Shown: piece after piece, positions 7,449-60,900 of the stretch
Layout: each line of letters starts with the position of its first letter
How positions within the stretch are numbered: the first letter of the stretch is position 1
Source: Owenia fusiformis
Taxonomy: Eukaryota; Annelida; Polychaeta; Sabellida; Oweniidae
Direction: 5' to 3'
Assembly: GCA_903813345.2 (NCBI GenBank)
Contig: CAIIXF020000011.1
Coordinates: 28,204,166-28,268,165, forward strand
DNA: 64,000 bases
Program-made: the position numbers and the translations under genes
The notes under the pieces: model-generated
Told to the model about the DNA's origin: nothing
Databases searched by the model: none
Seen by the model: only the letters and a program-made list of their open reading frames with translations

Positions 7449-10400
7449 TTACTCTCTTTGAAAGTTTGGTTTGTCTATTTTACAGCTATGGTCTCCTAGT
7501 AGATGTAGTATCACAGCCTGGAGAAAGAAGAGGGCACGATATGAATTTTATGAATATTATATGGTTATATACTGTTGACACATATAGGCATATAGTTGGG
7601 TATTTAATCAAAGGATGAGTGTGAATAGGTTAAAATCAAGAGGTCATATGACAATGACATCATCACTATAAGAACCATATAAGGCATTAAAATGTAAATG
7701 TCACCACCTGCTATTTGTTACAGATGCAAAACACAGAACACCAACCACTGAACACCAACACCAGAAGACCACCCTCAAAAAAGTTGGATACTATAACAAT
7801 ATATCCCCACTTCTGGTGGTGACATTATAACCTGTACCCAGAGACTTGCAGAAAATGGTACACATTTATTTTGTCAATCACTCACTTGTATTGTACAACA
7901 TGTACATAACAGGTTTTTGTTATGTGCACTATGTAATGTGCTAGAATTCTGCTACCATAGACTCTCCTTTGAAATTCCTTCAGGCCCGTAGCCAGGGGAG
8001 GTCCGATGGGTTCGAGCGAACCCCCCCCCCCCCTGGCCAAAAATTCTTTCAAAATCATGCAGTTTTTCACCATTCTGAGCACATTTTGAGTGATTTTTGC
8101 CATTTTTGGACCAAGATTGTCAAAAGTGAACCCCCCTGGAATTTTCCAAAAAGTGAACCCCCCTTGGCAAATCCTGGCTACGGGCCTGGCCTTATACTGT
8201 ACTTATTGCCAGATATGAAATAATTTATATGCATAACATGCAGGAAAATGCTTGCATGTGTTCATTTAAATATTTTAGCTATACTCGCCCATAATTGTTA
8301 TACAAGAAGTTTTGTAACAAACAAAAAATGAAGAAAAAAAATGAAGCAAGTTGAAAAAAGACCTTTTTGACCTTGAGAAGGTCATTGAAGGTCAAATGTG
8401 AAATCTAAAGTCAGATTTGAACTTCTGAGAACATGTAGATGATTTAGAAAAAATTGAAGTCAGTCTAAACAGTATTTGTTAAGTTATAGGAAGTTGTAAG
8501 AAATTGTTACAGACGCCGGACGCCAACCGCCAGACGTCAACCACCGGACGCCAACCTCCAACCGCCGGACGCCAACCGCCGTCAGAAAAAAACGGAGACC
8601 ATAACAATATGTCACCACTTTTGGTGGTGACATAATGAAGAAAAAAAATGATGTCAGTAAAAAGTAGCAAGGTATATTTGGTATATGACAAGGACACATA
8701 TTACGTCAATATGACTTAATTGCACTCTTGTATAAGTTCATGGCACATGCTCCTGTAACATTCCACCCACATCAATCAGTCCCCAATGAATGAATCATTA
8801 ATGTTTCAAGTATTCATGTGTATATACATGTAGAATATGGATTTTGAGAAACAGATTGCTTCTCTATATCTCTACACTACAGACTTCGTTCGGTGGGATA
8901 TCAGTGCAATTTAACTTCATCGTCATATGGTTATCTGGACATTTATAGTTAGTGTAGATCTTGATCTGGTCAATCTACATGTTTGTTTACCTCACACATA
9001 TATTTTTACCTCATCCAACATTGAGTTAGTGTTCTCCCCAAAAAAATTTGAACTGGGTGCAATATGTTCTTTCGCTTTTCAAGGAGGAATGAGTTCTTTA
9101 GCCCTGCATCTGGAGGATGGGACCCCACGGGACAATTTTGGTATCATGGAGAGGTTATTATTTGTAGGTACATGCATAGAAATTAATGTTTAATTGTGCA
9201 ATTTAGATATAAACAATGTTGCAACATTTATTATTTATTCAGCAACTACTTGTACTTGTCTATTATATAATAAAATAAAACAGATTATAAATAAATTATT
9301 TATATTAAATAATTTGCCTAATATGAAGATGTTTCCACTGAAGATTTGTGTCCAATGTATGATTGCTGTTTTTATCGCAGTTTGAAATTGTGCAACATTG
9401 TCTTTTATCGTATGATCTGTAAAATGAAGCCCTCTGATTGGTCAGTTCTTGTGCTGTACCAATCTGTATTGCTACTGAGATCACACGATAAAAACGTTAT
9501 TGAATGATATGAAGTGCAATACAGGATATATTCTGTCTCGATATTCTGTATTGGCACTCGACTTCGTCTCGTTCCAATACGGAATTTCTCGAGCAGAATA
9601 TATCCTGTATTGCACTTCAAATCATTCAATAACTTAAAGTGCTGCTGGACACACATCTGTTCGTCTATGGTTGGTAGAGGCCACATAAATATTGTCATCA
9701 AAATTCCAGATCTGCTTATTCAACTTCAAATTTTTACAGATGCGAGAGCAGACTTGTGCCAAGATCTGATTAGGATTTGGACATGCTGGGTAAATTAAAT
9801 GACGGCCTTTTACTCTTCAAATTGTGATATTCATCAGTATGAGTTGTGTTGTTGTATTTACAGATATATAAATAAATGATAAAAGTACAGAGCCAGGGGT
9901 TTCACAAGAATTTCTCGCAACAGGCTAAATAAATTAAAGCAAAAGGCAAAATTCATGATAATCATAAAAATCAAAAATGTTGAAAAGTCCCTAAAAACAA
10001 CAGGCGATATTGTAGCCTGTTGCCTGCTGCTAATGAAACCCCCTGATAGCACATACCATGGCACTCCATTTGCGATTCTCCGCCTCCTGCCAAACCAGAG
10101 AATGTTTTGTATCGTAGAAAACATCATCTGTCACTTCTTCAGATTTGCGTGGTAAACAATGTAGGAACACCCACTTGGCTGCCATCTCATTGACCAACTA
10201 TATAAAAACAGTATTAATAATAGTACATTTATATTATTCCATAGGTTTATTCCATTCTCAGGGTTTATGGGGGTTTGTTATGGAGTTTCTTACATTACCT
10301 CAATATCACAACATATATTTGTTTTATCACTAGTATTACTAAAGGGCTGTCTCTAAAATACCCCTTTTCAAGATTTGTAACAGCCTGTATTTTGTACAGT

Positions 10401-13400
10401 ATATCAAGTTGAAGCAAATATTCTTTCCAAAAAGCAATTAATCCACTAGGCTACTTTAACCAATGTCTAATGATGGTGCAAGTGAAGAGTTAATCTTAAT
10501 ATTTTGGGGTATTTTAGGATCATAAATAGGCATTGAGCCCCTTTAGTTATATAATAACATAACAGGGTGTCCCATCAAAATGAGCTCAGATCACAGAATA
10601 TGCCTCATAATAACAGAGTGTTTCTGGTGGAACAGAAAGATGCTTGAGTATATCAGAATGGTGATATAGCAGTGCTTATCAAAAAAATACTTCCTTTAAG
10701 TTTCATGTGGCTCAGGGTTCGAAATTAGCATCTGCCCCACTGTCAATGGCAGTCGCTTGGACTTTGAAAAACTGGTTGTTGATTGATCAATGGATTGATT
10801 GCCAGGTGGCAGTCATGTTTTCAACCTAAGTTGTGACACCTGATGTGGCCACAATGACTTACCATGAACCTGAGTTGCAGGCTTTGTATAAAAAACCTCC
10901 TACCTCATACCCACCTACCCATGTACGTGGGACATGATACAGTCTTTAAAGGGTTCAATTTTAAAGATCTTAGTTTATTTAATCTTAGTTTATGATGAAT
11001 TATATTCAAATTATTGACAATAATTTCATTTATGGCAATGTGAGAGTCGGTTAAGGTTTAGGTATGAACAAGCCCTAAGAAGACCATTCCCCGGTTATCC
11101 CAGGTAAATGTTTCTGGTAAGTTACACTGAACGAAACATCAAGCTTCAGATCTCGAGAGTACGAGATGAGACTTTAGACGAGATATCGATAGGATTGTAG
11201 TTGGAGGGTTTTCTCCCTAGGTGCGTACAAAATCCATTAACATCAATGTAAGTTATACATTTCGATTCTTTTCCCTCACCTCCTTCCCCAGCTTACACCA
11301 CCAGTTGGAGATTTATTTTCGCCCAAGAAGATGAGTTGGAGATGGTATTATAATATATCCAATTGAGCTAATTAACAGTTATGTCAAATTGTAAACTCTT
11401 GTAGCTAATTAACTTAAATTAGCCATTATTTTCCAAGGTATTGTGTTTTGTGTTAATTGGCTCAATATTTATTTATATTAATTTTATATTAATAATTTTA
11501 CATGTACGACTCTCACGGCCATATCTATACTCTACATGAACATAAAGATGCATTTGTAACGACCCTTGATAGCAAGTTGCTACTACATCCCAGCTGGGTT
11601 AGATTCCCACTCGGGGCATCGAATTTAGCACACTTTCTTTCAATTTCTTCATCTGCTCGCAGTCGTTAGTTATTTATTCCCCTGGGGCGCCCTCGGGTCA
11701 TTACACATTCAAATGCATCCATATGCCTTTATTTATGGATCTGTCATCTGTCTAGTCACTAAATAAAGCCGGAATTACAGAAATGTTAATAATAAGAGCT
11801 ATTTTGAGATTTCATAATCTTTAAAATTGAACCCTTCAATGACTGTATCATGTTCCACGTAGGTGGGTAGGTAGGTATGAGGTAGGAGGTTTTTTATACA
11901 AAGCCTGAGTTGCAGCTTATTAAATCGGACACACCTTACCTAGCTATCTGTGAATTTACTTTAATGCACCTTACGGCAAGATAGAGCTGGTTATACAAGT
12001 TTACATGATAGCACAGCCAAATCTTACCTTTCTGTCAATCTGGTATCCATGGAAGTCATTCAGTCTCTTCTCTTTCTCTTCCTCTTGTCCCATACTGATC
12101 CATGTATCAGTTACTATGACATCAGCCCTGTAGGCAACCTCCTTTGGATCATTGCTAATACTGATGCAAGAGCCATGCTACAATTGGAAAGCGTAAGGGT
12201 CAATATGTATCAGTTATTATGACATCAGCCCTGTAGGCAACCTCCTTTGGGTCATTGCTAATACTGATGCAAGAGCCATGCTACAATGGGAAAGCGTAAG
12301 GGTCAATATGTATCAGTTATTATGACATCAGCCCTGTAGGCAACCTCCTTTGGGTCATTGCTAATACTGATGCAAGAGCCATGCTACAATGGGAAAGCGT
12401 AAGGGTCAATATGTATCAGTTACTGTACTATGACATTAGCCCTGTAGGCAACCTCCTTTGGGTCATTGCTAATACTGATGCAAGAGCCATGCTACAATGG
12501 GAAAGCGTAAGGGTCAATATGTATAAGCTAATATGACATCAGCCCTGTAGGCAACCTCCTTTGGGTCATTGCTAATACTGATGCAAGAGCCATGCTACAA
12601 TGGGAAAGCGTAAGGGTCAATATGTATCAGTTACTGTACTATGACATTAGCCCTGTAGGCAACCTCCTTTGGGTCATTGCTAATACTGATGCAAGAGCCA
12701 TGCTACAATGGGAAAGCGTAAGGGTCAATATGTATCAGTTATTATGACATCAGCCCTGTAGGCAACCTCCTTTGGGTCATTGCTAATACTGATGCAAGAG
12801 CCATGCTACAATGGGAAAGCGTAAGGGTCAATATGTATCAGTTACTGTACTATGACATTAGCCCTGTAGGCAACCTCCTTTGGGTCATTGCTAATACTGA
12901 TGCAAGAGCCATGCTACAATGGGAAAGCGTAAGGGTCAATATGTATAAGCTAATATGACATCAGCCCTGTAGGCAACCTCCTTTGGGTCATTGCTAATAC
13001 TGATGCAAGAGCCATGCTACAATGGGAAAGCGTAAGGGTCAATATGTATCAGTTACTGTACTATGACATTAGCCCTGTAGGCAACCTCCTTTGGGTCATT
13101 GCTAATACTGATGCAAGAGCCATGCTACAATGGGAAAGCGTAAGGGTCAATATGTATAAGCTAATATGACATCAGCCCTGTAGGCAACCTCCTTTGGGTC
13201 ATTGCTAATACTGATGCAAGAGCCATGCTACAATGGGAAAGCGTAAGGGTCAATATGTATCAGTTACTGTACTATGACATTAGCCCTGTAGGCAACCTCC
13301 TTTGGGTCATTGCTAATACTGATGCAAGAGCCATGCTACAATGGGAAAGCGTAAGGGTCAATATGTATCAGTTACTATGACATCAGCCCTGTAGGCACCC

Positions 13401-16400
13401 CCTTTGGTTCATTGCTAATACTGATGCAAGAGCCATGCTACAATGGGAAAGCGTAAGGGTCAATATGTATCAGTTACTATGACATCAGCCCTGTAGCCAA
13501 CCTCCTTTGGGTCATTGCTAATACTGATGCAAGAGCCATGCTACAATGGGAAAGCGTAAGGGTCAATATGTATCAGTTACTATGACATCAGCCCTGTAGC
13601 CAACCTCCTTCGGGTCATTGCTAATACTGATACAAGAGCCATGCTACAATGGGAAAGTATAAGGGTCAATATTATATCTATCAGTTACTATGACATCAGC
13701 CCTGTAGGCAACCTCCTTTGGATCATTGCTAATACTGATGCAAGAGCCATGCTACAATGGGAAAGTATAAGGGTCAATATGTATCAATTAGTATGACATC
13801 TGAGCCCTGTAGGCAACCTCCTTCGGGTCATTGCTAATACTGATACAAGAGCCATGCTACAATGGGAAAGTATAAGGGTCAATATTATATGTATCAGTTA
13901 CTATGACATCAGCCCTGTAGGCAACCTCCTTTGGATCATTGCTAATACTGATGCAAGAGCCATGCTACAATGGGAAAGCGTAAGGGTCAATATGTATCAG
14001 TTATTATGACATCAGCCCTGTAGGCAACCTCCTTCGGGTCATTGCTAATACTGATGCAAGAGCCATGCTAAAATGGGCAAATGTAAGGGTCAACATTTCA
14101 AAAAAATGGCTCCAAATAATACAAGTGAGCCTGCATACTTAACACAGATTAGATGGAACAATACATCATATATACAATCTCTTATCGACTCATTTTTCCT
14201 CAGCTAAAACCTGGGTAAGTGGAACACCTTTGGTGGTAACCAGACAACTTATCCCCTAAACGACTCATCCCTGGACAACTCATCCCCTAGATAACCCATC
14301 CCTGGACAACTCATCCCCTGGACAACTCATCCCCAATTTGTCTAGGGTATGAGTTGTCCAGGGGATGAGTTGTCTAGGGGATGAGTTGTCCGTAAGCCCC
14401 TTTGGTACCCCTAAAATGTCTTCTACTTGGGAGGTGTTCTACTTACAGAGGTTCATTTAACAATAAGTCAATGCAATAGGCTGCACTCTTTGGGCTCTCG
14501 GGAAGATATATTGTTTATCCCTCGGGATATTCCCTGTATCCAAAACCTCCCAGTGCATAACCCCTACATATCCTTTTAATCCTTGCATAGAAACATATAA
14601 ATGGTTATTATGTAAAATGATCATAACCTATATGTACTCATCAGAATCAGATAGGTAAAATTAACAAAATACATGCAATATTAAATAACAGGAAATTAAG
14701 AAGGCGTAGGTAGGAGCTCTTTAATTTAGTATAAAAACAGTGTCATCGTGCTATTTTTATAATGCTTGATAACTAATAGGCCTAGAGGCTGGGAAGTTAA
14801 ACATAAAATGTGTGTATACTGTAGCTATGACGTAAATGTAGTTTATTGACAATGTTTTATTAATAACAGGGTGCTCACTAAGAAATGACACTAGGTCTCC
14901 CATTTCTACAGTTTTTAACCAATCTTTCTAGATTTTGCACATATTATCTGGCATGTAATAATTAGTGTACATACCAAATTTCATGTCTCAAGAATTAAAA
15001 TATTTATAGGATATCCTATGATTTTGAGGAATATCATTTTTATCTACAAGGTGATATTGATATCTGCACGAGAGAGCAAAGCGAACAAGTGCATATATCA
15101 ATATCACCGAGTAGATTAAAATGATATTCTGAAAAAAAATCATAGGATGTTCTTATTATCCTACACTTAAAAGGAGTGTACTAAATGTATATAATATCAT
15201 TGCAAAATGAATTTCATGCCAAATAGAGTCAATTTGGCGGGAAATCAACAAGCGGAGTATATCGTCACAATATCCTCTGCATATTGGGTTTTACGGAGTA
15301 TATTGTCACGATATCCTCCGCCCGGAGTATATCATCACGATATCCTCCGGTTATTCATTTTGTCAATAGATATCAAATTTATTTTTTAATGTTAATATAC
15401 AGTACATTAAGTACACTAAGTGTAGGATAATTAATTTTATCATATATATTTTGATTTGGTAACATGGTCCTTGACACAGCACATATGACGTCACATTTTT
15501 TAGCATTAATTAAGAATCTTTAATAATGAGCAAACACTATATCCAGCACTCTTGGTCCATGTCAAGTGATACAATATTCACTACAACATAATTTGTATCT
15601 TCTTCAATGCATTTTTATTGTTGTTTAGCCACTCATTTTTGGAAAACATTTGTTTGGTCAAAATTATCTTATTTCAACCTGGCTACCCTTACAATTTTCT
15701 CAATTTTTTTCAATGTATAGATAACCTTAGCTGAGACTTATAATGCAAAGCTTACAAATAAAGCTAAGAGTCTCAATGTACAGATTACCTTAGCTGTGAG
15801 ATTATAGTTTAGATTACCTAAGCTGAGAGTTTTGGATTACCTAAGCTGAGAGTTTTGGATTACCTTAGCTGAGAGTTTCAATGCATCGTGCATAACTGCT
15901 GGATCCACTTCATAACCCTGGAAAACAGTAATCTTTGAATCACAAATACATATTTATGTAATACTCAATCGTTGTCAAACATGGCTATTCCAATCAATTC
16001 TGATACTGATTCTGAGTTTTCCATTCTCTGTTGTACTTCCTAATTTATATTCTATGTACATGAAAGCTTTACTTGTGCATGGAAAATAGTGCATAGTTCT
16101 ATGATGTCTTTACAGGTAGAATCGCAATACATGGTTCTATGTTGGCTTAACCTGTAGGGACTGGCAACAATGCATAATAATTATATGATAGCTTTACCTG
16201 TGCAGTTGCAATGCATAGTTCTATAATGGCTTTACCTTTGGAGTTACAATGGATTGTTCCAAACGGCTTTATCTGTAGAGTGGCAATGCATAGTTCTACA
16301 ATGGCTTTACCTGTGGAGTTGAAATACATAGTTCTATAATGGCTTTACCTTTGGAGTTGCAATACATAGTTGTATAATGGCTTTACTTGTGGAGTGGCAA

Positions 16401-19400
16401 TGCATAGTTCTTACATGGCTTTAAATGTGGAGTGGCAATGCATTGTTCTATAATGGCTTTACCTTTAGAGTGGCAGCACATATTTCTACGATGGCTTTAC
16501 CTTAGGAGTTGCAATGCAATGCTTAGTTTTATAATGGCTTTACCTTTGGAGTTGCAATGCTTAGTTTTATAATGGCTTTACCTTTGGAGTTGCAATGCTT
16601 ACTTTTATAATGGCTTTACCTTTGGAGTTGCAATGCTTAGTTTTATAATGGCTTTACCTTTGGAGTTGCAATGCTTAGTTTTATAATGGCTTTACCTTTG
16701 GAGTTGCAATGCTTAGTTTTATAATGGCTTTACCTTTGGAGTTGCAATGCTTAGTTTTATAATGGCTTTACCTTTGGAGTGGCAATGCATAGTTCTATAA
16801 TGGCTTTACCTTTGGAGTTACAATGGATTTTTCTATAATGGCTTTATCTGTGGAGTGGCAATGCATAGTTCTATAATGGCTTTACCTGGAGTTGCAATGC
16901 TTAGTTTTATAATGGCTTTACCTTTGGAGTTGCAATGCTTAGTTTTATAATGGCTTTACCTTTGGAGTTGCAATGCTTAGTTTTATAATGGCTTTACCTT
17001 TGGAGTTGCAATGCTTAGTTTTATAATGGCTTTACCTTTGGAGTTGCAATGCTTAGTTTTATAATGGCTTTACCTTTGAAGTGGTAATGCATAGTTCTAT
17101 AGTGGCGTTACCTTTGGAGTGGCACCACATTGTTCTATAATGGCTTTACCTTTGGAGTTGCAATGCATAGTTGTATAATGGCTTTACCTGTGGAGTGGCA
17201 ATGCATAGTTCTATAGTGGCGTTACCTTTGGAGTTACAATGCATAGTTCTATAATGGCTTTACCTTTAGAGTGGCAGCACATATTTCAACGATGGCTTTA
17301 CCTTAGGAGTTGCAATGCAATGCTTAGTTTTATGATGGCTTTACATTTGGAGTTGCAATGCATAGTTTTATAATGGCTTTACCTGTGGAGTGGTAATGCA
17401 GTTCTATAATGGCTTTACCTTTGGAGTGGCAGCACATATTTCTACGATGGCTTTACTTTTGTGTCACATTGCAATGCTTAGTTTTATAATGGCTTTACCT
17501 TTGGAGTGGCAATGCATAGTTCTATAATGGCTTTACCTTTGGAGTGGCAATGCATAGTCTAATAATGGCTTTACATGTGCAGTTACAATGCATAGTTCTA
17601 TGATGGCTTTACCTTTGGAGTGGCAATGCGTAGTTCTATACCCATCAAAGGACATCCCATAAGAAATGAATGTGTTATATTGTTACCATCACCAACCCAC
17701 GCAATCTTTAATCCTTGAAGATAACCAAAGTATTCCTGAAAAATAAAACCAAAATTATGTACAATGTAGATGTTGTAGACATAGTTCAGTCAAATGTGAT
17801 CTTCAATATCTAATTTCCCAGGGAAAAATTGCCGGTCCAGAATATATTCTAGACAGGTCCATATGGAACACCACTATGACGTCACATATTTCTCAGGTCG
17901 ATATAGTAAAATGAATGCCTTCTAAACTAGCACTTAAACCCCTAGAACTGGCCCGGCAAGGTGGTAATAATATGCAATAATTGACAGTCAAACTATTTCC
18001 AGACAATGTATATTGAGACTGTGGATGGAGATTTAAAATTATCTTCTTGTATCTCATTTATTTTAATCAATAGTATTGATTGAATACATTGTTTATTGTA
18101 ATTGTAGAACGTGGCTAATAATGCTAAAAGCACAGCCACTTACACTGTATTATTGTATTGTATTCTTTGTACAAATGAAAAACTTAATAAAAATAAATAA
18201 AAAAAAAGTTAAAATTGGTGGATTGATACGATATAGCAGAGTGATCCATAATTGTAACTCTGCTTTTTCCATTGAACACATTATCTACAAATGAAAATTC
18301 CAGAAAATTCCACCACAATCGAGAAACTACTAGTATTCCGATATAAGATGGTTGCATATTTTTGGGTCACCCTGTATATAGTATAGATATGATGGGAAAT
18401 CCAAGTGAATATAACAAGGCACAGACTTGAACAATATTGTACCTAAAATTTAGCATTGTGGTCTTGTTGACCAAGAAAGCAAGATGGCCGCAGAAAAGTT
18501 AATCAGCTCTAGAAATTATCACTGTGTAACATTTGAACGGTTTGGCTGGAAACCTGTAGACAAGTCTTGAAAGTGAAGATTTAAGGACGGAAAATCCAAA
18601 ATGGCCACCTTAAAATTTACCCAGAATGCCCAAAAACCAATCAGTTCTTGATGTTGATATGTAGAAACATCCCTGAAAATTTCAGATGAATCCCTCAAAT
18701 GGTTTGGCTGAAAATCTGTAGACAAGTCTTGAAAGTGAAGATTTTAGGACAGAAAATCCAAAATGGCCACCTTAAAATTTAACCAGAATGCCCAAAAACT
18801 AATCAGTTCTTGACGTTGATATGTAGAAACATCCCTGAAAATTTCAGATGAATCCCTCAAAAGGTTTGGCTGGAAACCTGTAGACAAGTCTTGAAAGTAA
18901 AGATTTTAGGACGGGAAATCCAAAATGGCCACCTCAAATTTACCCAGAATGCCCAAAAACTAATCAGTTCTTGACGTTGATATGTAGAAACATCCCTGAA
19001 AATTTCAGATGAATCCCTCAAATGGTTTGGCTGAAAACCTGTAGACAAATCTTGAAAGTGAAGATTTTAGGACAGAAAATCCAAAATGGCCACCTTAAAA
19101 TTTACCCAGAATGCCCAAAAACTAATCAGTTCTTGACGTTGATATGTAGAAACATCCCTGAAAATTTCAGATGAATCCCTCAAATGGTTTGGCTCGAAAC
19201 CTGTAGACAAGTCTTGAAAGTGAAGATTTTAGGACGGAAAATCCAAAATGGCCACCTTAAGATTTACCCAGAATGCCCAAAAACTAATCAGTTCTTGACG
19301 TTGATATGTAGAAACATCCCTGAAAATTTCAGATGAATCCCTCAAATGGTTTGGCTGGAAATCTGTAGACAAGCTGAAAAGTGAGACGCCGCCCGCCAAG

Positions 19401-22400
19401 CTGACTACAATATCGTACCTTTTGTTAGGTACGATAAAAAGACACACCTGTAGTGTAATGAAATCTGCTAGGATCTGCAAAGGATGGTAAAGATCTGAAA
19501 GTCCATTGATGACAGGAACACTGCTATATTCTGCTAGCTCAGTCACAACCTCATGTCCATATACCCTTGCAAGAATACCATCACACATACCTGAGAGCAC
19601 CCTGAAAAGACACAACCACAATATGATGCTAGACTTTCTATACAAAGCCAAATATTGCAAAATGCATGTATGAAACAGCAAAGAAACACTGCTATATTCT
19701 GCTAGCTCAGTCACAACCTCATGTCCATATACCCTTGCAAGAATAACATCACACATCCCTGAGAGCACCCTGAAAAGACACAACCACAATATGATGCTAG
19801 ACTTTCTATACAAAGCCAAATATTGCAAAATACATGTATAATACAGCAAAGAAACACTGCTATATTCTGCTAGCTCAGTCACAACCTCATGTCCATATAC
19901 CCTGGCAAGAATACCATCACACATCCGAGATAGCATCCTAAAAAGACAAAACCACAATATGATGCTAGACTTTCGATACAAAGCCAAATATTGCAAAATA
20001 CATGTATAATACAGCAAAGAAACACTGCTATATTCTGCTAGCTCAGTCACAACCTCATGTCCATATACCCTTGCAAGAATACCATCACACATACCTGAGA
20101 GCACCCTGAAAAGACACAACCACAATATGATGCTAGACTTTCAATACAAAGCCAAATATTGCAAAAGACATGTATAATTCAGCAAAGAAACACTGCTATA
20201 TTCTGCTAGCTCAGTCACAACCTCATGTCCATATACTCTGGTAAGAATACCATCACACATCCCTGAGAGCACCCTGAAAAGACAAAACCACAATACCATG
20301 CCAGACTTTCACAAAGCCAAATATTGCAAAATACATGTATAATACAGCAAAGAAACACTGCTATATTCTGCTACCTCAGTCACAACCTCATGTCCATATA
20401 CCCTTGCAAGAATACCATCACACATCCCAGAGAGCACCCTGAAAAGACAAAACCACAATACCATGCCAGACTTTCACAAAGCCAAATATTGCAAAATACA
20501 TGTACAATACAGCAAAGAAACACTGCTATATTCTGCTAGCTCAGTCGCAACCTCATGTCCAATGTCCATATACCCTTGCAAGAATAACATCACATATCCC
20601 ACATTTCCCCTGATTGGTAAGTTGTTTTGTATTATTAATTATTGCTTGCTGAAAATTAATATTGATAATTAAAAAAACTCTCTGGCATCCAAAATGAAAA
20701 AAAATGATAATAAAAAAACGGTTTGGTATTCCAGATGGGACATCTCAGATATCGGTCTTAATTGTAAGATAGTATAAACATAGGCATACATATACAGGGT
20801 GTCAAAAAACAACGGCACCCCCCTCTACAGCAAAAAGTACTTAATGTTACATGGTGTGTCATATCTCATTTTAAAGACAATTTAATTCTGGAGTTACCTG
20901 AGAAATTTCAGCTTTATATCATATAATTTTACAGATTTACAGCTGATTCTTAGTAGTTGGTATGACCACCAGCTGCTGATCAAACAGCAGCTTATCTGGA
21001 CGGATATGATTTCAATAAAAATTCACATAAAGGTGTAGCATTGCATTATCCTCTTCGCACTTTCCTCACATTCTTCAGAAATACATCCTTACTGTATCTT
21101 CTTTCAAGAGGCTCTTTGTCCATCAGTTCCTATACCCTGTTTTTCAGAAATGAACCCATATGTTCAGTGCAGTTGAAATCTGGGGTAATTCTTTCATATT
21201 TCACTTTCTGAAGATTTGACCTTAAACCAGTAACAGAGCAGCAAACAAAGTACCGAAGTAGCAAACTTTGAAACAATGTAGCTTTTTTAATATTAAGTTT
21301 TATTAAATGAAATTTGATGAGTAACTCCAGAATTAAATTATCTTTCAAATGAGGTATGACACGATATGGAACATTGAGGACTTTTTGCTGTAGAGGGGGG
21401 TGCCGTTGTTTTTTGACACCCTGTACAGTGTTATATATAATTTTAAAGCATATGATATACTCTTTCAGAATGAATAGGTTTTTAAGTCCCATTTTATAAG
21501 TTGTCATGGTTACAAGATTCCAAAAATACATTGGGTTTGTACTTGGACGTGATATCACGTCCTTCGTAGTCAACATATACGCTTCATGACGTCATATCAT
21601 ATCATGACATGACAGGGCCACAGCAAACAATTGTCAGGGATTAAGAAAAGAAATTTTTTAATATTTACATTGTATATGGTGCATTTGAAACTATAATTTG
21701 TTAATGTTTTTTCAACAAATTTTATGAGTTTTAATGATGTAAATGTGCAAAATTTGCAAACCATTCTAAAATGCTATGATAAATTCATACTTTAAAGAGA
21801 TCTCAAAATAAATGGAAATCCCATGACATGGGGAGTTACCTTGCGCTGTCTTTAATGGACTCATTGACTCCAAGATGAATGTCTTGAGGACTCAGGAATA
21901 CAGGGTGACCACCAAGTAGTGCCATACCTGCAACACAAGTCTTATATTTCATATTTTTATCATACATGTAGTATACTTGCCCATAGCCAGCTTTTACCAA
22001 GGGGGAGCTTTTTTCCAAGGGGAGAGCTAGCTTTTTGACAGTTTTGGCTAGAAAATCATGCAAAAAGTGCTCATAATGGCCAGGGGGAGGAGCATCAGCT
22101 CCCCCTTGGCTACAGGCCAGGTGTAATTAGGTAATGAATATGGCTGAACCATTTTGGTGCGAGGAAGATATAACTCTTTTTAGACCTAATAAGTTTTCAC
22201 ACTTTGGGCAGAGGTGCAAGGAAAGATATCTTTAATTGAACCTGTCTGTAAATTTTAAGACAAAACATCATGCATGGTGAGTGATATTTCAGGCCTTTGA
22301 TACTGTAGATACACATTATTTTTTGGATCTACCTGTTTCATTTGAGATCCTTGTCCGTGTGCTTCTCTTCTGGAAGATCATAGCCAAAGATTTACCCAGT

Positions 22401-23253
22401 AGAGGCTGATAGATCTACAAATAGCATTCAGGTGTATCATATTTCAGTTCCACAATGGTGAGAAATAAAAGATTATTTACCTGAAATATTTACCTGAAAA
22501 TAACATAAAATTGCACAACTGGCTATTTGGCATGTCATGATCAAACTCTCTGCCTCTTTTATTATTAGCATTTACCTCATGATTGCACTTACCTCATGAT
22601 TACACTTACCTCATGATTGCAATTACCTGATTATTGTACTTACCTCATGATTGCACCTCGTAATTGCACTTAACTTATAACTGCGCTTACCTCATGATTG
22701 CTTTTTCATTTATGCACCTACCTCATGATTGCATTTACTTCATGATAGCATTTACCTCATAACTGCACTTACCTTTTGATTACACTTACCTCATGATTGC
22801 ACTTACCTCATCATTGTACTTACCTCATGATTGCACCTTGTGATTGCACTAACCTTATAACTGCACTTACCTCATGATTGCACTTTCATTTTTGCAATTA
22901 ATTCATAATTGCACTTATCTTATGATTGGATTCCTTATGATTGCACTTACCCCTTGATTGCACTTTCCTTTTGATTGCACTTAAACTCATGATTGTACTT
23001 ACCTCATGATTGTACTTACCTCATTATTGCACTCATCTCTTGATTGCACTTACCTCATGATTACACTTACCCCTTGATTGCACCTACCTAATTACTGCAC
23101 TAACCTCTTGATTGCACTTGCCTCTTGATTGCACTTACTTCATGATTGTCTTTGATCCTAGTCTTGAGGTCCATTGCTGTCCATAGCAACTGCTGCAATT
23201 CTGCAGCTGTGAGTTGCTTAAGTGTAAGAAGGTCACGTCCTCGCAAGTTCACC
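7449..23253 (-). CDS. OTC: Ornithine carbamoyltransferase, mitochondrial (exons 2-10)
   Basis: Urea-cycle enzyme joining carbamoyl phosphate and ornithine to give citrulline in mitochondria. Minus-strand exons: 23139-23253, 22333-22414, 21840-21927, 19448-19601, 17613-17735, 15864-15917, 12028-12177, 10057-10197, 7449-7517 (stop TAA). Phases agree throughout, giving 324 residues plus a missing first exon with the transit peptide. Visible motifs, in order: [11 protein letters not shown]; the carbamoyl-phosphate loop [61 protein letters not shown] (ornithine loop); and [12 protein letters not shown] with the active-site Cys. Exons 3-8 (82, 88, 154, 123, 54, 150 nt) equal the sizes I know for human OTC. 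The C terminus is [19 protein letters not shown]. Five introns carry tandem arrays built from the adjacent splice junction (listed separately). A likely start exon with a phase-2 donor should lie above 23253, but I could not identify it. Confidence 0.93.
7699..7824. repeat. GTGGTGACA-family interspersed repeat, copy 2
   Basis: Same organisation as the copy at 6137: ATGTCACCACCTGC head, TTACAGATGC, degenerate ACCAACCACTGAACACC units, AAAAAAGTTGG, and terminal hairpin CCACTTCTGGTGGTGACA. The preceding bases (AAGGCATTAAAATG) also resemble those before copy 1, so the family may extend further left. Confidence 0.7.
7981..8188. mobile_element. GCCCGTAGCCAGG fold-back element, copy A
   Basis: Terminal inverted repeats CAGGCCCGTAGCCAGG and CCTGGCTACGGGCCTG enclose about 175 bp with runs of C (GAACCCCCC) and a core TCAAAATCATGCAGTTTTTC. 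There is no open frame of note. Related copies lie at 35458-35642 and 21979-22118, with fragments near 23443 and 57311. Confidence 0.75.
8501..8633. repeat. GTGGTGACA-family interspersed repeat, copy 3
   Basis: The least decayed core of the family: tandem GACGCCGGACGCCAACCGCC-type decamers (8513-8580). AACAATATG and the hairpin TCACCACTTTTGGTGGTGA follow. The head is missing, starting at TTGTTACAGACGCC. It is GC-rich against an AT-rich background. Confidence 0.75.
9496..9633. repeat. Long hairpin, MITE-like
   Basis: An imperfect palindrome of about 138 bp. GTTATTGAATGATATGAAGT at the left pairs with its complement ending at 9633, and both arms contain GCAATACAGGATATATTCTG. A second smaller inverted repeat (TTTTATCGTATGATCT with AGATCACACGATAAAA, about 9402-9494) adjoins it, so the full element may begin near 9402. 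It sits in OTC intron 9. Confidence 0.7.
10880..11905. mobile_element. 1026-bp TIR transposon, non-autonomous, 9-bp TSD
   Basis: Terminal inverted repeats of about 100 bp begin GGCTTTGTATAAAAAACCTC, and the right end is the complement. A perfect 9-bp direct repeat, TGAGTTGCA, flanks both ends (10871-10879 and 11906-11914). No transposase frame is present. Long TIRs with a 9-bp duplication fit Mutator-like elements. It lies in OTC intron 8. Confidence 0.8.
12178..14095 (-). repeat. OTC exon 8 acceptor-derived tandem array
   Basis: Nineteen occurrences of the marker GTAAGGGTCAAT recur every 100-112 bp from 12193 to 14081. Read on the minus strand, each unit holds a polypyrimidine tract, CCCATTGTAG, and then the first part of OTC exon 8 (CATGGCTCTTGCATCAGTAT onward through GCTGATGTCATAGTAACTGA). 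The true exon 8 is the last unit. Units lack the exon's 3' part and donor. Spacings alternate near 102 and 108 bp, with two spacer variants (TTACTGTACTATG and AAGCTAATATG), which indicates a higher-order repeat. This is the 3' part of intron 7. Confidence 0.95.
14252..14393. repeat. Palindromic array of GGACAACTCATCCCC units
   Basis: Four to five copies of CTGGACAACTCATCCCC or close variants face three copies of their complement (GGGGATGAGTTGTC), separated by about 10 bp around AATTTGTCTAGGG. It can form a long stem. It lies in OTC intron 7. Confidence 0.8.
15005..15157. repeat. Fold-back hairpin with adjacent inverted repeat
   Basis: ATCCTATGATTTTGAGGAAT at the left and its complement near 15150 form the outer stem. 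AAGGTGATATTGATATCTGC and GTGCATATATCAATATCACC form the inner one. A second inverted repeat (TCCTACACTTA at about 15161 with TAAGTGTAGGATA at about 15417) encloses three copies of a GGAGTATATCGTCACRATAT motif at 15256-15350. These are MITE-like and lie in OTC intron 7. Confidence 0.6.
15732..15863 (-). repeat. OTC exon 7 donor-derived short repeats
   Basis: On the minus strand the exon 7 end plus donor, CTCTCAGCTAAG|GTAATC, is followed by near copies: CTCTCAGCTTAGGTAATC twice at a 23-bp period, then CTCACAGCTAAGGTAATC and CTCAGCTAAGGTTATC, which are more widely spaced. Each copy still contains AG|GT. The first base after the bar is the true intron start. This is the opposite end of intron 7 from the exon 8 array. 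Confidence 0.88.
16060..17612 (-). repeat. OTC exon 6 donor-derived 38-bp array
   Basis: About 40 copies of a unit of roughly 38 bp. On the minus strand it reads GAACTATGCATTGCAACTCC then AAAGGTAAAGCCATTATA. The true exon 6 ends GAACTACGCATTGCCACTCC AAAG|GTAAAGCC, so each unit reproduces the last eight codons of exon 6 (ELRIATPK) and its donor. A central block (about 16530-17060) is nearly homogeneous; the outer units are more diverged, as expected for unequal exchange. The period is not a multiple of three. It occupies most of intron 6. Confidence 0.95.
18530..19375. repeat. ~167-bp satellite in OTC intron 5
   Basis: Five units of about 158-169 bp, marked by GTAGACAAGTCTTGAAAGT recurring from 18557. 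The unit also contains AAAATGGCCACCTTAAAATT, TTACCCAGAATGCCCAAAAA and GAAACATCCCTGAAAATTTC. A single diverged relative (AAAATGGCTGCC then TTTACCCAGCATGCAAAACA) lies at about 44937-44992 in CDC5L. The array is therefore a local amplification of a dispersed repeat, not of OTC exon sequence. The open frames through it are repeat artefacts. Confidence 0.9.
19602..20606 (-). repeat. OTC exon 5 acceptor-derived 168-bp array
   Basis: Upstream of the true acceptor (exon 5 starts at 19601) the same junction recurs with starts at 19769, 19937, 20105, 20273 and 20438, plus a truncated copy near 20606. The period is exactly 168 bp for four steps and then 165. Each unit has a pyrimidine-rich TTGTGTCTTTTCAG acceptor and the first 28 codons of exon 5 ([20 protein letters not shown] and so on to EYSSV). 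It then switches to intron sequence before [10 protein letters not shown]. The array is open in the OTC frame through several copies (minus frame from 20125 into exon 5). Confidence 0.95.
20805..21423. mobile_element. 619-bp Tc1/mariner-like element, decayed
   Basis: Terminal inverted repeats of roughly 110 bp: CAGGGTGTCAAAAAACAACG at the left and its complement at the right, with TA on both sides (20803-20804 and 21424-21425). Both arms contain GGCACCCCCCTCTACAGCAA and a CTGGAGTTAC block. The 148-residue minus-strand frame from 21576 crosses the right border and is not a recognisable transposase. It lies in OTC intron 4. Confidence 0.75.
21979..22118. mobile_element. GCCCGTAGCCAGG fold-back family, diverged copy
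   Basis: GCCCATAGCCAG at the left and GGCTACAGGCC at the right face each other, with the family core AAAATCATGCAAAAAGTGCTCA between them and G-rich runs (AGGGGGAG). It is more diverged than the copies at 7981 and 35458. It lies in OTC intron 3, just upstream of exon 4. Confidence 0.6.
22571..23138 (-). repeat. OTC exon 2 donor-derived 17-bp array
   Basis: About 30 copies of a 17-18 bp unit. On the minus strand it reads GCAATCATGAG|GTAAGT, abutting the true exon 2 end GACAATCATGAA|GTAAGTGCAATC at 23139. Each unit therefore repeats the last codons of exon 2 and a strong donor consensus. Decayed units (CAAGAGGCAAGT, TAATTAGGTAGGT) occur next to the exon and in the middle. The array fills the start of intron 2. 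Confidence 0.93.
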
Positions 23254-40298: not shown

Positions 40299-40347
40299 GT
40301 ACTAACCTTGTTTACAACAACTGGCTTTCAGTACTAAGTGTTGAACT

Positions 40348-40503
40348 AGTACAAACCATTCATTCAACTAGTACAAACCATTCATTCAACAAGTACAAAC
40401 CATTCATTCAACTAGTACTAACCATTCATTCAACAAGTACAAACCATTCATTCAACTAGTACTAACCATTCATTCAACTAGTACAAACCATTCATTCAAC
40501 TAG
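40348..40503. repeat. 22-bp minisatellite
   Basis: About seven units of ACAAACCATTCATTCAACTA plus GT, with alternation of CTAGTAC and CAAGTAC and of ACAAACC and ACTAACC. The ISTNHSFN-type open frame is an artefact of the 22-bp period. Confidence 0.92.
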
Positions 40504-41013
40504 TGCCAATAATTCTACAAATATGTGCTTACACACTTAGTAACTTATACCAAATATTTGTGAAACTAATGCCTTCATATTGGATGCAACCAGTGCTAGC
40601 CAATAAGAAAAATATTTTCCAAATACTAGTAGACCCTACTTCACAGAGACGACACAATATTCAATTTTCTGGATATTTTATATTTATGGACATATGCTGA
40701 AAACTATTATGTGAAGTAATTGTAGTTTTATCTCCATGTCTAAAATGGACTCAATTCAAATGTGTCAGGTTTACTCAAGCTAGGAATTATGACTTACTTA
40801 TGAGCAGTCAATTTATCTTTAACATGACTTACTAAAGTCGAAGGAGGACACAATTTGATAAATAACAGTCAAGTCAAGTAAAATTGATTGAATCCATTTT
40901 CACAAACTTGTAATTACTTCGTCATTTCTAGTTAATTGACCACATCAGAGAACTAGGTCACATTCCCTAATGCACATGTTATTCCAAGAATTGTGTTAAC
41001 AATGTCACTAGTG

Positions 41014-52083
<11,070 letters not shown>

Positions 52084-53089: not shown

Positions 53090-53615
53090 TCGTATAGAAT
53101 TTTCTATGTAACTTCAAACTATATTTTCAAATACACTATCCTCAGATAGAAATTTCTATACAAAAGACTCCGTTGACTTTTCGTATAGAAATTTCTATGC
53201 GGATGAGGCTGGAAATATTAATTTTGTTATTGATGAACATTTGGTTATCGGTATAGAAATTTCTCTACCGATTAAGCAGAAGATTTAAAACTGAATACCT
53301 CTATAGAAATTTCTATGTGAAGGCCGTCGGAAAATACTAATTCTGTTACCAGAAAAACATTTCTCCCCGTATAGAAATTTCTATGCCTTTCTAATTAAAA
53401 CAAGTGTTCGTATAGAAATTTCTATGCAGGTGTAAATATAAATTTTGGTTGCCGGTATAGAAATTTCTATAGGGAAAAGATCGATAAATAAAAATGCTGT
53501 ATAGAAATTTCTATGCGGCGCAGAAAAATAATTTTGCTTGATGGCCAATATAGAAAGTTATATATGGTCAAAAAATGCATGTATAGATATAAAAATCCTG
53601 TATAGAAATTTCTAT
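53090..53615. repeat. Array of 16-bp palindromes, left arm
   Basis: About ten copies of the palindrome TATAGAAATTTCTATA/G: near 53145, 53184, 53252, 53302, 53370, 53411, 53456, 53500 and 53600, plus decayed ones near 53094 and 53549. They are separated by different spacers of about 17-52 bp. Several spacers match, in reverse order and strand, those of the array at 63524-63974. It is therefore one arm of a diverged inverted repeat. Confidence 0.92.
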
Positions 53616-57926: not shown

Positions 57927-58957
57927 TGTATCTTATTTGATCATTGAGATATTCTGTTTGATTTTAATGGGTTAAGAATGACAAGTGTATTCAGGTAGAT
58001 TTCATAACAAAAGATACATTTACGCATTGCAACACCATGTACGGTTTAACTATTGCGCATACCTAATATTTTAAGTCCTCTATAATATGTAGTTTATTTT
58101 TAGTTTTGAGATCATCGTTACAATATTCTTGCCATTGTTATTTTACTATTTTCTATATGCTGTACCACTGCCAATCAACAACTGACGAATAATATTGTGA
58201 GTAATGATATAAAGTTTCCAGCTGTTTATAATATAATGTTTTTGTATAAAAGAGTATTGGACACAGGCACGAAAACACGAGTTTATTGAGGGGGAAGCCA
58301 GCTTTTGGCAATGTGATGGCGTTTGCTCTACTTTGATAAAAATCGTACGAAAAAGTCTATACCCCTATACTCCAAATGTTTAGTTGCTTGAAAATTAAGA
58401 GGCCGATTAATGACAAAGCAGGCCATTATTAGCCCAAATGGCCCACTTATCGTGACCCTTAAAATATTTTAGGCCTGCACTTTTTATCATCCTTTGTTGA
58501 CTTGTTGAGGTATTGATCCGAGAAGGATGACTCTTGAGTAAATTATCTCAGGGGCTTACAATGCATGTGCATGAAGTCAACTGATAAAACCATTGAATCT
58601 GTCACTAAATAAACTTACATATTGAAAATACCATCTCCCAAATTACATTAAATCATGCCTTAAGGCAGATATTTGTACATTTTAATACATTTCTAGGTTG
58701 AGTGAATCCGGAAAGATAAAGGGAGGAGGTCCTTATACATAAATCATACAATATTGAAATGTGCTTTTCTATCTTGTGGGCTATTGTGTCAATTTCAATC
58801 TGAAGAGATGCGTAACATTGTATGTTAACAAACCGCAAGCCTGAGTTTACTCATCAAACAGACTCCTACTTGACCAGTTGACCGATCATTGTAATTTGTA
58901 ATACGTCCACAGGTCAGCAGTTAGTTCAAGTTTATATCCTGAATATGCAGTAATTAT

Positions 58958-60900
58958 GGTAGACTGTAAATCTAGTAAATCTAGTAAATCTAAATCTAGT
59001 AAATCTAGTAAAATCTAGTAAAATCTTGTAAACTTTTTAGGGACCATTCATTTGATGTCGATGTCAGTCTCTATGAAGAGTACTGGTGATTATGATTCCT
59101 TTTACAGCATTAGAAAAATACCTTCTCTGCATTAAAATTCAGAGTCATTCCTTTCACCAAATAATCAGTAAACAATTTTTTTTAACAAAATTGTGAAATA
59201 TTATAATAAAAAAGAATGTTTAAGGGGCTGATATGATATGGCTTTTAACTATTAATTACAAGGAATACAAGGAACATATCATCATCAAAACGTAAATAGA
59301 AAGCATTATAGAAATGTCATACTATACTTTATGGTAGACTGTAAATCTAGTAAATCTAGTAAATCTAAATCTAGTAAATCTAGTAAAATCTAGTAAAATC
59401 TTGTAAACTTTTTAGGGACCATTCATTTGATGTCGATGTCAGTCTCTATGAAGAGTACTGGTGATTATGATTCCTTTTACAGCATTAGAAAAATACCTTC
59501 TCTGCATTAAAATTCAGAGTCATTCCTTTCACCAAATAATCAGTAAACAATTTTTTTTAACAAAATTGTGAAATATTATAATAAAAAAGAATGTTTAAGG
59601 GGCTGATATGATATGGCTTTTAACTATTAATTACAAGGAATACAAGGAACATATCATCATCAAAACGTAAATAGAAAGCATTATAGAAATGTCATACTAT
59701 ACTTTATGTATAGGTAAAGCAAATAGATCAATCAGTAAGTTGTCTCACTCTTCCCCTTACTACAGCATTTGATTGTTTTTATTATTTTGGGGGGTTGGCA
59801 AAAATCAATTTTAAAATTGCCATTTATCTATTCCTCTAACATTGGAACTTCTACAAATATTGTCAATTGAACAGCATCGCCAAAAAATAAGCAATAACTA
59901 AATTATCTGATAGACTAAGCATTATAACATTTTGTGAGGGAAAAACAAGCCTGTGTCATTTAGATGGTACGCATTGTCCCCCCAGTCCTTAAATGTGTGG
60001 CTTAATTTGTTAATAGAGCATGCTTCTTGGGTGGGTTGTGTATGATGATAAAATGGGTGTACCATTTGATAACCATTTTGTTATCCAGTACTAACATATA
60101 GTTGTTTTGTAACTAAATATAATGAAATAAATGTTAGAATTTTTTCTTCATGTTCATTTCATTCATACAAAGGCATTTTCGGTGCTTTTTCGACATTTGC
60201 ACTTATATCCTAGACATTGAATATTCAAGTTTTTACAAGATTTTACTAGATTTACTAGTTTTACAAGATTTACTAGATTTACTAGATTTACAGTCTACCA
60301 TACTTTATGTATAGGTAAAGCAAATAGATCAATCAGTAAGTTGTCTCACTCTTCCCCTTACTACAGCATTTGATTGTTTTTATTATTTTGGGGGGTTGGC
60401 AAAAATCAATTTTAAAATTGCCATTTATCTATTCCTCTAACATTGGAACTTCTACAAATATTGTCAATTGAACAGCATCGCCAAAAAATAAGCAATAACT
60501 AAATTATCTGATAGACTAAGCATTATAACATTTTGTGAGGGAAAAACAAGCCTGTGTCATTTAGATGGTACGCATTGTCCCCCCAGTCCTTAAATGTGTG
60601 GCTTAATTTGTTAATAGAGCATGCTTCTTGGGTGGGTTGTGTATGATGATAAAATGGGTGTACCATTTGATAACCATTTTGTTATCCAGTACTAACATAT
60701 AGTTGTTTTGTAACTAAATATAATGAAATAAATGTTAGAATTTTTTCTTCATGTTCATTTCATTCATACAAAGGCATTTTCGGTGCTTTTTCGACATTTG
60801 CACTTATATCCTAGACATTGAATATTCAAGTTTTTACAAGATTTTACTAGATTTACTAGTTTTACAAGATTTACTAGATTTACTAGATTTACAGTCTACC
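58958..60900. mobile_element. 967-bp Mutator-like MITE interrupted by its own copy
   Basis: TIRs begin GGTAGACTGTAAATCTAGTA and end with the complement, imperfect over about 75 bp and made of TCTAGTAAA subrepeats. The 9-bp direct repeat AGTAATTAT borders it (58949-58957 and 60901-60909). Removing the inner copy (967 bp) and one 9-bp duplication leaves exactly 967 bp. No transposase frame. Confidence 0.93.
59333..60299. mobile_element. Inner 967-bp copy nested in its twin
   Basis: Same ends as the outer element. The 9-bp direct repeat ATACTTTAT borders it (59324-59332 and 60300-60308). Its left and right parts look identical to the two halves of the outer copy, so the insertion is very recent. 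Confidence 0.93.

Follow-up and report, generated by a model that had tools for sequence, protein, structure and literature searches.

Five tandem arrays were found in the gene for ornithine carbamoyltransferase (OTC) of the annelid Owenia fusiformis, and each of them spans an adjacent splice junction, three at a donor and two at an acceptor. They are probably minisatellites of the type known as mirages, formed by tandem duplication across an exon edge, enlarged on the intron side and tolerated as half-exons, with five such events in OTC. Junction-spanning arrays are a real, genome-wide feature of this organism, and an excess of arrays at junctions over random seeding is suggested, not secure.

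The analysed assembly comprised 498 Mb in 525 contigs. The window, i.e., the whole stretch of 64,000 nucleotides that was analysed, corresponds to C11:28204166-28268165, and positions given without a contig refer to it. The OTC gene is located with its introns at 10057-23253 on the minus strand. It was identified by a profile search, in which Pfam OTCace and OTCace_N matched some of the window exons, and by alignment of the protein encoded by the joined exons, which runs along human OTC and contains the STRTR and HCLP motifs. Exon numbers were taken over from a preliminary description of the window, and exons 2 to 9, which include neither the leader exon nor the last exon, were placed, all on the minus strand. 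Exons 5 (19448-19601), 6 (17613-17735) and 8 (12028-12177) were placed by profile match and sequence reading, and exons 2 (23139-23253; 5' end TTTAG/GGTGAAC, with the slash marking the boundary here and below), 3 (22333-22414), 4 (21840-21927) and 7 (15864-15917) by sequence reading. Exon 9 (10057-10197), which carries the HCLP motif, was assigned the donor CCATG/GTATG and a provisional 5' end. AG and GT border exons 2 to 8 as read from the sequence, and the exon joins agree with human OTC in the alignment.

A complete, intronless OTC of 365 amino acids with a leader-like N-terminus was detected in the same genome (locus L115, C6:9958900-9960700). Because this intact copy exists on C6, decay of the window OTC was examined. 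Relaxed constraint or decay was not supported: purifying selection acts on the window exons (dN 0.17 and saturated dS against the intronless paralogue), and the numbers of unique changes (20 vs 14, chi-square 1.06) revealed no significant difference in rate. The intronless gene is a retrocopy-like paralogue, and an old one since synonymous sites are saturated in comparison to the window OTC.

Arrays were called with Tandem Repeats Finder (TRF), and all five junction arrays were assigned to the minus strand. The exon 2 donor (after 23139) is spanned by a 17-bp array of 35 copies at 22568-23148 with the unit consensus AATCATGAG/GTAAGTGC, in which GT is present in 21 of 26 junction-like sites. 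With GAG/GTAAGT, the decoy donors of this array are closer to the donor consensus than the real donor of exon 2, GAA/GTAAGT. The exon 6 donor (after 17613) is spanned by a 38-bp array of 38 copies at 16177-17640, the unit of which contains ...ACTCCAAAG/GTAAAGCC, corresponding to the ATPK end of exon 6; GT was found in 33 of its 36 junction-like sites. The third donor array (23 bp, 3.1 copies, 15808-15878) spans the donor of exon 7 (after 15864). At the exon 5 acceptor (before 19601), a 168-bp array of 6.4 copies occupies 19517-20600, and at the exon 8 acceptor (before 12177), an array at 12102-14093 was called with a period of 103 bp (19 copies) and also of 211 bp (9.5 copies). The spacings in the latter array are mostly 103 or 108 bp with a higher order of 211 bp, TRF identity is 95% for the 211-bp row vs 92% for the 103-bp row, and AG is present in all acceptor-like sites (19/19). 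The 103/108 alternation and the 211-bp identity correspond to the concerted or higher-order turnover by which mirages are recognized; among the five arrays this applies to the one at exon 8 only.

These data agree with the preliminary description in that the five arrays are mutually independent and each contains the adjacent OTC junction, i.e., the donors of exons 2, 6 and 7 and the acceptors of exons 5 and 8 (TRF and exon reading). The unit lengths given there (17, 168, 38, about 23 and about 105 bp) were recovered by TRF as 17, 168, 38, 23 and 103/211 bp, and the units are unrelated among themselves, with a best local score of 11 between any two. When mismatch limits were applied, 91 sites resembling real OTC junctions were counted at exons 2, 5, 6, 7 and 8 (26+5+36+5+19). 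Intact GT or AG was present in 83 of these (21+5+33+5+19), the five real sites included, so that the earlier estimate of about 100 decoy sites has to be lowered to nearer 80. Copy-to-copy TRF identity in the OTC arrays is 74-95%. Based on TRF ends and copy comparison, the arrays reach 10 bp into exon 2, 85 bp into exon 5, 27-28 bp into exon 6, 15 bp into exon 7 and 76 bp into exon 8; the units at exons 5 and 8 thus include the first 85 and the first 76 bp of the respective exon. Since the duplicated unit extends 10 to 85 bp inside the exon, the AG/GT microhomology that had been put forward as breakpoint is unsupported.

The earlier inventory was correct for the five junction arrays and left out one more large array in an intron (162 bp, 5.2 copies, 18539-19384, called by TRF with no strand assigned). 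This array lies in OTC intron 5 and spans no exon. Its sequence is dispersed, with at least 39 other full-length places, mostly 98% identical, among the 40 of 491 candidates that were scored; it is part of a dispersed element and is not junction-seeded. Small arrays inside OTC cross no junction, such as those at 14243-14391 in intron 7, where two arrays of one 16-bp unit face each other in opposite orientation like an inverted-repeat element. For the arrays at 40344-40504 and 47400-47628, inspection of the surrounding stretches by eye revealed no adjoining exon. Further arrays were called by TRF in the window, such as at 53410 and 58954, and at 58954-59708 a 375-bp stretch is present twice in tandem with 100% identity. 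One exon in the window we take to be CDC5L.

For comparison, 182 loci of the same genome with 261 exons and 447 junctions (275 kb) were sampled. A junction was defined as the end of a domain match that stops inside the domain; closer visual reading was confined to junctions with an array. The first kinase sample consisted of 60 exon loci from 144 PF00069 matches; these were hand-picked partial-domain matches, and long frames, paralogues and dubious matches were left out. The second kinase sample covered 48 regions with 90 exon matches and drew on those listed among the 158 PF07714 matches; the Ras-family sample covered 74 regions with 111 exon matches and drew on those listed among the 153 PF00071 matches. 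AMP-binding (14 matches) and ABC (25 matches) families were left out because of too few exons. Arrays with a TRF score of at least 120 and a period of at least 15 were counted and assigned to classes by eye. Flanks covered 350-600 bp only, so arrays at the edges are cut, or are counted though seeded outside. The expected number of junction arrays is 3.5 when the smallest period is used and 4.8 with the best-scoring period.

Clear junction-spanning arrays were present at 10 of the 447 sampled junctions (2.2%; 95% interval 1.1-4.1%), and junction seeding is therefore not the property of OTC alone as which it had been presented. At a rate of about 2% per junction, a lack of arrays in two ordinary genes, as stated for CDC5L and FAM20B in the preliminary description, would not be surprising. 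Six of the ten lie at the acceptors of L019 (86 bp), L046 (51 bp), L086 (52 bp), L094 (42 bp, two or three copies), L157 (52 bp, two or three copies) and L185 (65 bp), and a seventh at the acceptor of L164 (113 bp, 2.8 copies; C12:35840543-35842086). The remaining three are at the donors of L019 (71 bp, two or three copies), L033 (54 bp; C10:27469368-27470765) and L062 (26 bp). In L164, which is presumably a Rab35-like gene, both ends of one intron are duplicated, the donor with 20 bp in 2.2 copies and the acceptor with the 113-bp unit in 2.8 copies. In L033, a palindrome-like insert breaks up the 54-bp array and occurs twice, as if co-amplified. Coordinates of the 17 clear arrays (five in OTC, ten sampled, L110 and L112) showed none that includes both junctions of its own exon (0/17).

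Four further arrays were kept out of the strict count: at L169 the array ends about 5 bp before the acceptor (TRF), at L171 it reaches about 1 bp into the exon, at the second acceptor of L185 the qualifying row ends just before the acceptor, and the donor array of L164 is clear, with 2.2 copies and a score of 65. Inspection of the L062 donor at 501 and of L088, L091, L043, L059 and L159 revealed arrays that cross no junction. L058 (C10:2256296-2257805) was rejected as an array and turned out to be a whole-exon duplication. Its two kinase exon copies, which we assume to be GSK3-like, lie about 178 bp apart and are both open with splice sites; they could possibly serve as alternative exons.

Donor doublets were searched genome-wide with the pattern AGGTAAGN{8,18}AGGTAAG, which gave 557 sites vs 413 for the reversed pattern. 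Many of the places among the matches listed stem from dispersed families, and on account of these counts and this origin the excess is of no use as proof. Six doublet arrays were picked by this pattern. Two of the six (L110 and L112) were seeded at a coding exon, the array of L109 lies about 48 bp beyond a donor, and no exon was found at the arrays of L111, L113 and L114. Donor-like motifs at many places among the matches listed come from a dispersed minisatellite whose unit resembles AGGTAAGCCATACAACCGA.

Since tandem duplication inserts sequence without overwriting, an array can span a junction only where this was already true of its first unit. For seeds distributed at random over the collapsed OTC gene, for which 15 junctions were assumed, P is about 1e-5 for five spanning arrays out of five; for five or more out of six, with the 162-bp array added, it is about 2e-4. 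Both values are post hoc because the gene was chosen for its arrays. In the pooled sample, 10 junction arrays were found vs 3.5-4.8 expected at a score of at least 120 (P 0.001-0.014), a threshold which was set after the first sample, and that sample holds most of the excess; at a score of at least 200, the numbers were 8 vs 3.0-4.3 (P 0.005-0.047). The first kinase sample contributed 4 vs 0.7-1.0 expected (P 0.004-0.014), the second 3 vs 1.8-2.8 (P 0.25-0.57) and the Ras sample 3 vs 1.1 (P 0.08). Variation of margins and thresholds in the two kinase samples gave P values between 0.006 and 0.18. Inclusion of three borderline arrays raised the pooled count to 13 vs 3.5-4.8 (score 120; P 3e-6 to 3e-4). 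The excess is weak because the two later samples jointly, without the first, gave 6 vs 2.8-3.9 expected (P 0.05-0.17). The comparison of junction overlap with random expectation, which the preliminary description had proposed, was thus above chance in the pooled exons and weak when the first sample was omitted; it was neither clearly passed nor failed, and leans towards above chance. Clustering by locus was not significant in the strict set (one locus with two arrays, P 0.19), and the widest set (n=14, with the three borderline arrays and the weak L164 donor) had three loci with two arrays vs 0.43 expected (P 0.004).

Conservation was compared between the exonic and the intronic part of the decoy units. 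At exons 2, 6 and 8 the exonic part was not more conserved. A first impression of higher conservation in the exonic part at exon 5 disappeared with gapped alignment (P 0.28). Divergence was no higher in junction arrays than in the others (mean TRF identity 90 vs 87, P 0.34), and mere longer retention is therefore not supported. Since the exonic copies at these four exons lack extra conservation and the OTC coding exons are conserved, the simplest reading is that the decoys would be neutral half-exon copies beside a working exon.

The formation of mirage-type minisatellites by tandem duplication, which we consider the most plausible explanation, would proceed in three steps. A short tandem duplication would cover an exon end, the splice site and flanking intron sequence. 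Slippage or unequal exchange, of which the 103/108 alternation may be a sign, would then enlarge the array towards the intron. Finally, the outermost copy alone would have a partner site at exon distance, and a spliceosome working across the exon would use it; the remaining copies would be half-exons with no partner site nearby, ignored provided that exon definition operates in this animal. OTC would survive since no copy other than the outermost one forms an exon with both acceptor and donor. The five OTC arrays would represent five such events, and the same process would act at about 2% of the sampled junctions elsewhere. The duplication mechanism, tolerance via exon definition and normal splicing are what this sequence-based model predicts. 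Against tolerance stand the decoy donors at exon 2, which look stronger than the real site, and tolerance is not a rule, since human boundary repeats are described in PMC2812944 as activating cryptic sites. Against five ordinary events stands the number of arrays in one gene, which greatly exceeds the rate in the sample (P about 1e-5 to 6e-4 with 15 junctions; 1.4e-5 to 2.4e-4 at the strict rate and up to 5.7e-4 at the lenient one). Among the 26,966 genes given for Owenia fusiformis in PMC9977687, however, 0.4 to 6.5 genes with 5 of 15 junctions hit are expected at the strict rate and up to 15 at the lenient one; OTC is thus extreme and need not be a hot spot.

The same expectation of about 0.4 to 15 genes fits pure chance of place, according to which a minisatellite-rich genome is seeded anywhere, arrays at junctions are not purged and OTC marks the tail of the distribution. 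This explanation deserves serious consideration and is still rather improbable: 27 of the 37 arrays in the sample (score at least 120, period at least 15) contain no junction by the strict count and the later samples, above all the second kinase sample alone, are compatible with chance, but the observed number exceeded the expected one in every version, with the pooled P values given above at both scores. Because the pooled count exceeds random seeding, some factor may favour junctions. That junctions are preferred seeds, by way of transcription-, R-loop- or spliceosome-linked DNA damage or of AG/GT microhomology, is unlikely; the strict and the borderline-inclusive counts and the clustering in the set of 14 argue for it, whereas the non-significant clustering in the strict set, the loss of strength without the first sample (P 0.08 for Ras alone), breakpoints well within the exon instead of at AG/GT, and AGGTAAG doublets that largely belong to dispersed families among those listed argue against it. 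A function of the arrays, by which decoys would sequester U1 or U2AF, slow splicing or yield regulated isoforms, is very improbable. The splice dinucleotide is kept in all aligned acceptor copies (6/6 at exon 5; 18 of 19 copies aligned at exon 8), and the exon 5 unit has a length divisible by three, with one frame open for 303 codons across several copies and the exon; on the other hand, the dinucleotides at exons 2 and 6 are preserved to about the same degree as other columns, and the exonic parts are not better conserved than the intronic ones. Misassembly that created or stretched the arrays would have a precedent in an amphioxus globin mirage, one of which was aberrantly assembled in the draft genome according to PMC3087553. 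Copy identities of 74-95%, the 103/108 alternation in one array and the recurrence of arrays in unrelated genes make such an artefact hardly credible; the copy numbers of the OTC arrays may be wrong even if the arrays are real. The wider proposition that junctions are preferred birthplaces of minisatellites in certain animal lineages outside the cephalochordates, with some genes as hot spots that have arrays at many junctions and with a steady supply of duplicated splice sites for the shift or birth of introns, appears doubtful. Junction arrays provide a natural setting in which to test how the spliceosome selects among tens of near-identical sites, and models of intron gain and sliding can draw on them as a concrete source.

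A literature search beyond amphioxus, with subscription papers mostly outside its scope, yielded, among the papers listed, human boundary repeats and no annelid case. For human duplicated genes, PMC2812944 reports that variable repeats where exon and intron meet activate cryptic splice sites and give rise to new introns. Like the OTC arrays, these are minisatellites at exon-intron boundaries, with units of about 30 bp; unlike them, they are found in primate paralogues of recent origin, differ from copy to copy and reportedly generate introns. The intron gain in potato RdRp (PMC4974935) shares with OTC an intragenic tandem duplication that affects splice signals. A new intron was inferred there, whereas the OTC copies lie inside existing introns and none is evidently new. 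Dual-specific splice sites of the UBC type (PMC10809524) resemble OTC in array units that carry splice motifs; those repeats are coding and their sites are used, whereas the OTC units are part exon and part intron, with decoys that are predicted only.

The closest system is that of the amphioxus mirages, which PMC3087553 and PMC3902484 describe for the globins BflGb6 and BflGb9, Adh3, TnC and PGBD5 and present as peculiar to a few amphioxus genes. Both systems consist of minisatellite-like duplications across an intron/exon boundary, at a donor or an acceptor, with an intact genic copy. The OTC arrays have the defining characters of mirages: they are tandem and minisatellite-like within a gene, and their units contain an exon edge with its splice site (three donors and two acceptors). 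Published unit lengths are 10-72 bp in amphioxus Adh3 and 150-160 bp in the globins, compared with 17, 23, 38, 103 and 168 bp in OTC; the 103-bp unit falls between these two and close to the PGBD5 values of 60 and 108 bp, and the 168-bp unit is slightly above them. Haplotype length differences are reported for amphioxus, and data on Adh3 and globins, according to PMC3087553, suggest that mirages leave regular splicing undisturbed; a second haplotype of OTC was not found among the family profile matches in the assembly. The mirage literature examined contains, in its accessible parts, no genome-wide count of junction-spanning arrays. In the papers examined mirages have a cephalochordate host, which is a matter of range and no mechanistic requirement, whereas the OTC arrays belong to an annelid, in which five occur in one gene and about 2% of the sampled junctions carry such arrays. 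The OTC arrays thus probably represent mirages in a new, annelid lineage, together with what would be the first rough count across a genome; with about 2% of sampled junctions and five arrays in one metabolic gene, mirages become a countable genome-wide feature.
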